Source: Thiobacillus sp.
GTDB lineage: Bacteria; Pseudomonadota; Gammaproteobacteria; Burkholderiales; Thiobacillaceae
Length of the DNA: 45,992 nucleotides
NCBI GenBank assembly: GCA_024709165.1
Contig: JANJXF010000053.1
Location: forward strand, 1 to 45,992
Reading direction: 5' to 3'
The position numbers and the translations under genes were made by a program. This document shows positions 755-1,387 of the stretch, piece by piece. The notes below the pieces were generated by a model, which was not told where the DNA came from, ran no database searches, and saw nothing but the letters and a program-made list of their open reading frames with translations. The stretch's first letter is position 1. Every line of letters starts with the position of its first letter.

Positions 755-862
755 ACATTAACCCAACGATCAATTTAATTTATTGATGGCCACATAAACC
801 ATTAGAATAACATGGTTGACTAATATACTCAGGTATCTAGACTGAGGGGCGTAGTACCCCCT
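755..862 (+). promoter_or_regulatory. AT-rich promoter region of the SOR-like gene with inverted repeats
   Basis: This is the most AT-rich stretch seen in the window. It contains TTGACT (816-821) and TATACT (824-829), which are not correctly spaced to each other for a sigma-70 pair. An inverted repeat CTCAG (828-832) / CTGAG (842-846) and a small hairpin GGGG (846-849) / CCCC (857-860) follow, just before a good ribosome site (AAGGAGAGAG, 869-878). It suggests a dedicated, regulated promoter for the gene at 881. Confidence 0.4.
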
Positions 863-880
863 GTCAACAAGGAGAGAGCC

Positions 881-1336
881 ATGAGTGGATTAATCGCCAA
901 CTTCCCGTCCAACGGCATCGTCACGGTCAATCGCGTGATTCTCAAGCCGGAGTACAGTGTGGACGATTTGCAGGAGCGCGTTGCCTTCCTGTGCGAAAAC
1001 GTCAAGACCTATCATTCCGACACCGGCTTCATCGGCGGCTACGTGGCGCTGAACTCCGGGCGGATCTCCAACGAGGGATCGACCATCGGCCAGGCGGTGG
1101 AGAGCCCGCTGAAAGGCCGGGAAGCGCTGATCGTGACCTTCTGGACGGATTTCGACAGTCACGAGCAATCGCACCGTTCGGAGACCTTCCAGCCGCTGTT
1201 CAGGAAAGCGCTGGAGCTCTGCGAAAACGGCAATGAAGAGGTCGTCTACGAGATGCTGTGGTCGGGCAAGGCCTACGCGCCGGAAGAGGTTGAGGCCGCA
1301 CGCAAGGTGAAGGCGCAATACGCGCAGGCGGCCTGA
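881..1336 (+). CDS. SOR-like single-domain protein (ferredoxin-like fold, putative iron site)
   Basis: A 151-residue soluble protein without signal peptide. It resembles the N-terminal half of archaeal and bacterial sulfur oxygenase reductase (SOR, about 310 residues), which disproportionates sulfur with O2 at a mononuclear iron. From memory, Acidianus SOR uses Cys31, His86, His90 and Glu114. The equivalents here appear to be Cys38 (AFLCENV), His94 and His98 (FWTDFDSHEQSHR) and Glu120 (NEEVVYE). Cys38 to His94 is 56 residues, against 55 in SOR. GFIGGY also matches the SOR GFVGF segment. It has its own AT-rich leader, a strong ribosome site and a perfect terminator, so it is probably monocistronic and well expressed. 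The alternative is a generic antibiotic-biosynthesis-monooxygenase (ABM)-like dimeric barrel without iron. The fold call is fairly sure; the activity is inference. Confidence 0.65.
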   Translation: MSGLIANFPSNGIVTVNRVILKPEYSVDDLQERVAFLCENVKTYHSDTGFIGGYVALNSGRISNEGSTIGQAVESPLKGREALIVTFWTDFDSHEQSHRSETFQPLFRKALELCENGNEEVVYEMLWSGKAYAPEEVEAARKVKAQYAQAA

Positions 1337-1356: not shown

Positions 1357-1387
1357 GCAAAACGGCGGGCATTGCCCGCCGTTTTGC
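1357..1387. terminator. Perfect 14-bp hairpin terminator, bidirectional
   Basis: GCAAAACGGCGGGC (1357-1370) and GCCCGCCGTTTTGC (1374-1387) are exact inverted repeats around a 3-base loop. The T run lies in the distal arm, with matching A bases upstream, so it can work from either side. It lies 21 bases after the SOR-like stop. Confidence 0.85.

Follow-up and report, generated by a model that had tools for sequence, protein, structure and literature searches.

We describe a family of single-domain proteins related to the catalytic N-terminal half of sulfur oxygenase reductase (SOR), represented by a gene in a 45,992-nucleotide stretch of DNA from Thiobacillus sp. (GenBank assembly GCA_024709165.1, contig JANJXF010000053.1), which as a whole we call the window. 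The analysis shows the gene, its family, a set of invariant residues, the relationship to the SOR N-terminal half, the predicted fold, a conserved operator-like site of the IscR type, and further genes preceded by the same motif. The encoded protein is a member of this SOR-related family and not a SOR, because it fails the length and cut-off tests for the latter. Our main reading, to which we assign a probability of about 0.55, is that it is a mononuclear-iron, persulfide-handling protein under the control of Fe-S status; the iron, the persulfide, the dimer, the reaction, and the binding of IscR are all inferred.

Gene structure and genomic context

The features of the locus are collected in Table 1. 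The G+C content at the three codon positions of the reading frame (0.58, 0.40, and 0.83) is gene-like, and the gene stands alone, with an S24-peptidase-like gene upstream and a Memo/AMMECR1 gene downstream. It is present in one copy in the window's genome (G000, 87% complete). The -35 element of the promoter sits within the operator-like site, and the first promoter hexamer is kept across the alignment of orthologue upstream sequences. The terminator region (1340-1400) has a folding energy of -34 kcal/mol (z -6.2).

Table 1. Sequence features at the locus of the SOR-like gene (window coordinates)
Feature	Position	Strand	Basis
Coding sequence, single-domain SOR-like protein, 151 aa	881-1336	+	ORF call and translation, ATG start
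Ribosome-binding site AAGGAG	869-874	+	read from sequence; AGGAG in most rows of the upstream alignment
Sigma-70-like promoter TTGACT-16-TAGACT	816-843	+	pattern scan, 1 found against a shuffle mean of 0.5
IscR type-1 operator-like site ATGGTTGACTAATATACTCAGGTAT	812-836	+	23/25 match to E. coli consensus
Intrinsic-terminator-like hairpin GCAAAACGGCGGGC-ATT-GCCCGCCGTTTTGC, 14 bp	1357-1387	+	folding z -6.2

An earlier reading, made from the sequence alone, had described this 151-residue frame with a dedicated leader and a perfect terminator, and suggested strong expression on that basis. The frame held exactly, the leader held insofar as it contains the conserved promoter/operator block, and the hairpin was found, though it is absent from the output of the terminator pattern scan. 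Strong expression remains an inference without expression data.

Relationship to SOR and to the ABM superfamily

The evidence for a relationship to SOR that can be drawn from the single protein sequence is weak. The window protein alone matches Pfam SOR (PF07682) with E 0.034 and 13.4 bits, short of the gathering score of 25 bits, and NCBIfam SulOxRed (NF047630) with E 0.0051 and 15.9 bits, short of the cut-off of 400 bits. These SOR models are its sole matches in Pfam and NCBIfam; both are far under the cut-off, and none is above it. The SOR-like proteins constitute an unnamed family. In a PDB search with the single sequence, triosephosphate isomerase (0.12) was on par with SOR (0.15). We judged the triosephosphate isomerase matches to be due to chance, as they align a C-terminal stretch and concern a different fold.

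Besides the main subfamily, the family contains a second subfamily drawn from cells and from IMG/VR viral contigs, with 30-39% identity to the window protein. When a profile of 45 aligned sequences (25 from the main subfamily and 20 from viral contigs) was compared with the PDB, SORs ranked first (6m35, E 2.3e-4); a HMMER search of the PDB with the profile of the second subfamily alone found no SOR. Profile-profile comparison (hhalign) of the 45-sequence alignment with the N-terminal half of five SOR sequences gave a score of 55.1; for 100 column shuffles the mean was 12.8 and the highest score 19.8. Comparison with the C-terminal half of three SOR sequences gave 14.9. The score with ABM domains from related genomes was 34.0, with 50 shuffles reaching at most 17.5; this control used exact domain borders at 17 of 19 loci, L225 and L239 being left out as cut loci. 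The SOR N-terminal half scored higher than ABM in all three alignments compared, that is, with both subfamilies, with the main subfamily alone (37.2 versus 31.9), and with the second alone (41.5 versus 30.9), while the SOR N-terminal half and ABM compared directly gave 30.6. The margin over ABM is clear when the subfamilies are pooled and small for the main subfamily alone. These profile-profile scores place the family within the ABM superfamily, nearest to the catalytic N-terminal half of SOR.

The comparison with the SOR and ABM families, structure prediction, and a survey of gene neighbourhoods were among the checks proposed by the sequence-only reading, and all of these were run. Its claim of a half-length SOR-like protein that aligns with the N-terminal half of SOR held by profile-profile comparison, and its numbering of Cys38, His94, His98, and Glu120 is correct. 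It would have been refuted had a non-metal ABM family been the best match and these residues not been conserved; this is not the case, because all four are invariant, as described below, and the SOR N-terminal half outscores ABM.

Although the iron-bearing N-terminal half of SOR is homologous and its Cys, HxxxH, and Glu are in register, the protein does not qualify as a SOR: it has 151 residues and one domain, as opposed to ~310 residues and two fused domains, and stays under both family cut-offs. In the global hhalign alignment Cys38 is opposite the SOR Cys, HEQSH is opposite HEEMH, and Glu120 is opposite the SOR Glu. Where SOR has the pair Cys101/Cys104, the SOR-like protein has just Cys114, opposite the first of the pair and not present in all viral members. 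Another difference is that an IscR-type operator belongs to the SOR-like gene. SOR forms a 24-subunit cage and has bound iron and an O2-dependent disproportionation of S0; the structure of the SOR-like protein is predicted as a single chain only, and its iron and activity are inferred.

AlphaFold2 predicts a single ferredoxin-like domain in both subfamilies (pLDDT 89.0 and 87.7). In the predicted model Cys38 lies in the first long helix; helix 91-99 carries both His94 and His98, and strand 119-124 carries Glu120. A Foldseek search returned ABM-type proteins, including IsdG/IsdI, and SOR was not among the 50 top rows. The fold is thus predicted to be one ABM-type domain; the geometry of the four residues stays inferred. 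ABM-type domains can homodimerise into barrels (PMC4835899). The likeness to the ABM or dimeric alpha+beta barrel proteins (PF03992; for example, IsdG and SnoaB) consists of the predicted fold, which meets the domain test for that family, and of the profile score given above; the protein differs in its SOR-type Cys/His/His/Glu set and fails the test of a single-sequence Pfam match. Pfam ABM was not among its matches at a maximum E of 10; HMMER filters drop most weak matches. The one BFVD match below 0.001 is an ABM-named protein (4.6e-4).

The rival explanation that bears most directly on these results is that the protein is an ordinary member of the ABM family, namely a cofactor-free monooxygenase, a cyclase, or a haem-binding protein, and that the resemblance to SOR is accidental. 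The Foldseek rows and the ABM scores for the 45 sequences and for the main subfamily speak for it. Against it stand the missing Pfam ABM match, the higher SOR scores in three alignments, and the low chance (~3.5e-4) that all four positions would be invariant, the residues also being the right ones. We regard this explanation as very improbable.

Conserved residues

The chance just quoted refers to four given positions all falling among the 22 invariant columns, out of 151, of the 45-sequence alignment. These columns include Cys38, His94, Glu95, Ser97, His98, Glu120, and Trp127, so that the four positions are identical in 45 of 45 sequences at identities down to ~31%. Among close relatives (the window protein and the proteins of 78 of the best 80 loci; L085 and L101 lack an ATG and were left out) the same four residues and Cys114 are identical in 79 of 79 proteins. 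Cys114 is not invariant in the wider alignment, since some viral members lack it. In StSOR, neither activity was detected in the mutants H86A, H90A, E114A, and C31A, and roughly one-tenth of the activity remained in C101A and C104A (PMC7398979). The conservation in the SOR-like family resembles this pattern, with four positions fixed and a further cysteine variable.

Distribution and co-occurrence with sulfur oxidation

A scan of GTDB genomes returned at least 589 pattern stretches, of which at least 570 encode a relative. Close comparison was limited to the best 80, and taxon labels are known for these only; they include Thiobacillus, Sulfuriferula, Sedimenticola, Thioalkalivibrio, Thiohalophilus, and Thiogranum, together with unspecific MAG names. 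Within the window's genus 32 of 36 genomes match the family, four of them through the second subfamily only, and the overall count for near-relative genomes is 34 of 60. An even sample of the phylum yielded nine genomes out of 398; in eight the match is to the main subfamily, in G364 to the second. The neighbourhood survey, in which 92 loci were inspected by eye, found no partner gene conserved across groups; neighbours are common only within sets of near relatives. The plasmid search gave no match to the window protein or to one viral member, and PADLOC reported nothing. In the titles and opening lines of abstracts that we searched, which exclude most subscription journals and bioRxiv, we found nothing on a single-domain SOR family or on a SOR-like target of IscR.

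No full-length SOR was found above cut-off in 20 genomes bearing the SOR-like family. Two genomes of the window's genus carry a full-length SOR-related gene at ~270 bits (L214, G416:C195, and L215, G424:C26). The G416 protein scores 515 bits against PDB 6qpa, the G424 frame has an in-frame TAG close to its end, and both genomes match the SOR-like family through the second subfamily only, with none of the main type. Two further observations concern gene copies. Several Thiobacillus genomes have a second main-type paralogue in a different context and without the operator-like site (L086, L093, L095, L097), and in G219 (L048/L010) an open frame right behind the main gene repeats just its C-terminal 38 residues, with 63% identity to the window protein.

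SoxB was found above cut-off in eight of the nine family-bearing sample genomes, compared with 60 of 398 overall (Fisher 1.4e-6), and dsrA at E 1e-30 in nine of nine, compared with 53 of 398 (7e-9). Both values ignore shared descent, and because related genomes are not independent the co-occurrence serves as an indication only. The family is absent from 44 of the 53 dsrA genomes, and in the window's genome dsrA appears as two pieces under the cut-off. In published work, SOR has been called absent from certain Sulfuriferula isolates (PMC12285272) and was found in 3 of 75 Thioalkalivibrio strains surveyed (PMC6382920). The single-domain gene is present at loci labelled Sulfuriferula or Thioalkalivibrio (L111, L134, L136); the main text of PMC6382920 does not mention the strains named for L134 and L136, and an overlap with that strain set is unconfirmed.

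This co-occurrence, together with the homology to the SOR N-terminal half and the shared residues, could be taken to favour a second rival, a minimal SOR of energy metabolism with which sulfur-oxidising bacteria would oxidise elemental sulfur in bulk. The solitary gene, the operator of Fe-S type, the missing second SOR domain, and the viral copies count against it, and we consider it unlikely.

An operator-like site of the IscR type

An alignment of 13 loci yielded a conserved upstream block, GTTGACTAATnTACTCnGGTATnTAGACT, which fits the IscR type-1 consensus ATASYYGACTRWWWYAGTCRRSTAT (PMC6599224, PMC3899308). The site in the window is the sole match to this consensus with at most three mismatches in 46 kb, and no such match occurred in 100 shuffles. 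Among the upstream sequences of 79 orthologues, 53 have a site with at most five mismatches, two have one with six, and 24 have eight or more. None of 395 shuffled controls reached five mismatches, the best being six, once; of 395 segments drawn at random from these loci, clear of the gene, three did so. By genus label the site is present at 42 of 46 Thiobacillus-type loci and 11 of 33 others; the four Thiobacillus-type loci without it are the second paralogues listed above. It was not found, at five mismatches or fewer, in seven further main-subfamily genes or in six cellular genes of the second subfamily, and the operator is thus not universal in the family.

The sequence criterion for membership in an IscR regulon, a type-1 site at the promoter that is conserved in orthologues, is satisfied (23/25; 53/79). 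The likeness to the regulons of E. coli and Pseudomonas aeruginosa extends to the overlap with the -35 element and to the occurrence of the same motif before iscR in the genus. Site B of the P. aeruginosa iscR promoter, which was studied by EMSA, has 76% identity and also lies at the -35/-10 region (PMC6599224). In E. coli, type-1 sites are where IscR acts as a repressor in its cluster-loaded form, and this form is proposed to be lost when iron is limiting or under oxidative stress (PMC3899308). It follows from the E. coli repression that the SOR-like gene is most likely on when Fe-S clusters are short, an inference from sequence for which there are no IscR-binding or expression data.

A pattern built from the upstream sequences of SOR-like genes was searched in 17 genomes with at most two mismatches. 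It gave 28 sites in ten of the genomes, from two genera, and none in the other seven; a control with the reversed pattern gave two. By construction seven of the sites precede a SOR-like gene. The rest lie before iscR (six), cysE beside iscR (two), genes of the dsrC/tusE family (six, one of them in the window's genome), trpD-like genes (three), and clpX (one), with three unassigned. One example each of IscR, cysE, the DsrC/TusE family, and ClpX passed the NCBIfam cut-off, while the trpD-like gene has an NCBIfam match under the cut-off only. The SOR-like and dsrC/tusE-family targets in Thiobacillus set this inferred regulon apart from those of E. coli and P. aeruginosa; neither was found in the passages of the IscR literature that we examined.

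Two groups of co-targets may be noted in their own right. A type-1-like site precedes the dsrC/tusE-family gene at L325, L333, L338, L341, L344, and L347, all in genomes of the genus Thiobacillus, and if real would couple a protein of sulfur relay to the Fe-S status of the cell. The same operator-like site lies before the trpD-like gene, which is related to anthranilate phosphoribosyltransferase, at L334, L336, and L345.

Viral members

The SOR-like gene is carried by 32 viral contigs in IMG/VR, and the profile of the second subfamily finds 42 viral loci, largely the same ones; examples are L138:4983-5369, L145:4980-5375, and L146:4980-5375, with others in L138-L169 and L179-L213. Many of these contigs seem to be marine, judging from sample numbers. 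Some copies adjoin T4-like genes, for example gp32. An iscU-like gene is found within 200 nt in 4 of the 32 viral loci, two of which are near-identical to each other. Of the 32, 14 have an iscA-like gene, and the arrangements of these neighbours are several. The reverse check weakens this association, because the SOR-like gene occurs at just 1 of 80 viral iscU loci (61 of the 80 have an iscA-like gene); the link is probably recurrent but loose. INPHARED phages contained no match to the window protein or to one viral member, a different one from that searched in plasmids. PHROGs gave nothing at E 0.1 for the window protein and two viral members, phrog_28961 at 0.088 for one viral member, and nothing at E 0.001 for three viral members. 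As a separate observation, a Rieske-oxygenase-like protein (L147:5352-6467 and relatives) is encoded close to the SOR-like gene in eight viral loci; it matches Pfam Rieske with just E 0.084, on its first 170 residues.

The viral neighbours bear on a third rival, a factor for Fe-S assembly without oxygenase turnover, which would bring iron (bound by His94/His98/Glu120) and/or the persulfide of Cys38 to the Isc machinery. This is supported by the IscR-type operator common to the SOR-like gene and iscR, by the viral copies near iscU-like and iscA-like genes, and by the single invariant cysteine, Cys114 being missing in some viral members. However, all four SOR catalytic positions are retained, which suggests chemistry, no conserved isc neighbour was seen at the cellular loci inspected, and the reverse check is nearly empty. 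We leave this explanation as a possibility.

Proposed function

In our main reading, that of the persulfide-handling iron protein, a single ferredoxin-like (ABM-type) domain of common ancestry with the catalytic N-terminal half of SOR would form a homodimer closing into an alpha+beta barrel, by analogy with SOR and ABM proteins. Each subunit would hold one mononuclear non-haem iron through His94, His98, and Glu120, and sulfane sulfur would be held as a persulfide on Cys38, both by analogy with SOR. When Fe-S clusters are short, the protein would convert or mobilise persulfide or zero-valent sulfur, by oxidising it to sulfite and/or releasing sulfide. Because the promoter carries the type-1-like site, cluster-loaded IscR is proposed to repress the gene, and iron limitation or oxidative stress would induce it along with iscR, cysE, and the dsrC/tusE-family gene. 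The likeness to persulfide dioxygenase (ETHE1/PDO), which converts persulfide and O2 to sulfite, is the proposed type of reaction; ETHE1/PDO has a metallo-beta-lactamase fold, unlike the SOR-like protein.

The sequence-only reading had left two alternatives, of which the first was a minimal SOR and the second a sulfur-binding non-haem iron protein not yet described. We favour the second because of the IscR-type operator, the solitary gene, and, for some viral copies, the nearby iscU-like and iscA-like genes, with iron binding and activity still inferred. That the protein works with the SOR set of an iron site and a sulfur-holding cysteine is probable, although metal and activity are inferences. 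In view of the operator, with regulation likewise inferred, the likely role is less bulk sulfur oxidation than the handling of sulfur and iron under Fe-S stress.

A bolder reading, which is no more than possible, is that the protein is a minimal iron/persulfide enzyme of SOR type whose task is Fe-S homeostasis. In sulfur oxidisers it would be repressed by cluster-loaded IscR and would supply or clean up the sulfur, perhaps also the iron, that goes into cluster assembly; in some T4-like phages it would form, together with the neighbouring IscU/IscA, a module for Fe-S assembly. If this were true, SOR would be a duplicated offshoot of such a single-domain family, adapted to energy metabolism.

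Conclusions

SOR is commonly seen as a rare enzyme, mostly of thermoacidophiles. Public genomes contain at least 570 stretches that encode a relative of half the size in which the four residues are the same; within the window's genus it is found in 32 of 36 genomes, and it occurs on viral contigs as well. The IscR-type operator suggests a connection of sulfur oxidation with Fe-S homeostasis that can be tested directly. With its single domain, the protein can serve as a compact model of the SOR active site and of how SOR may have arisen by duplication. For the cell, the gene may be not an ordinary orphan but one whose product handles sulfur and iron.
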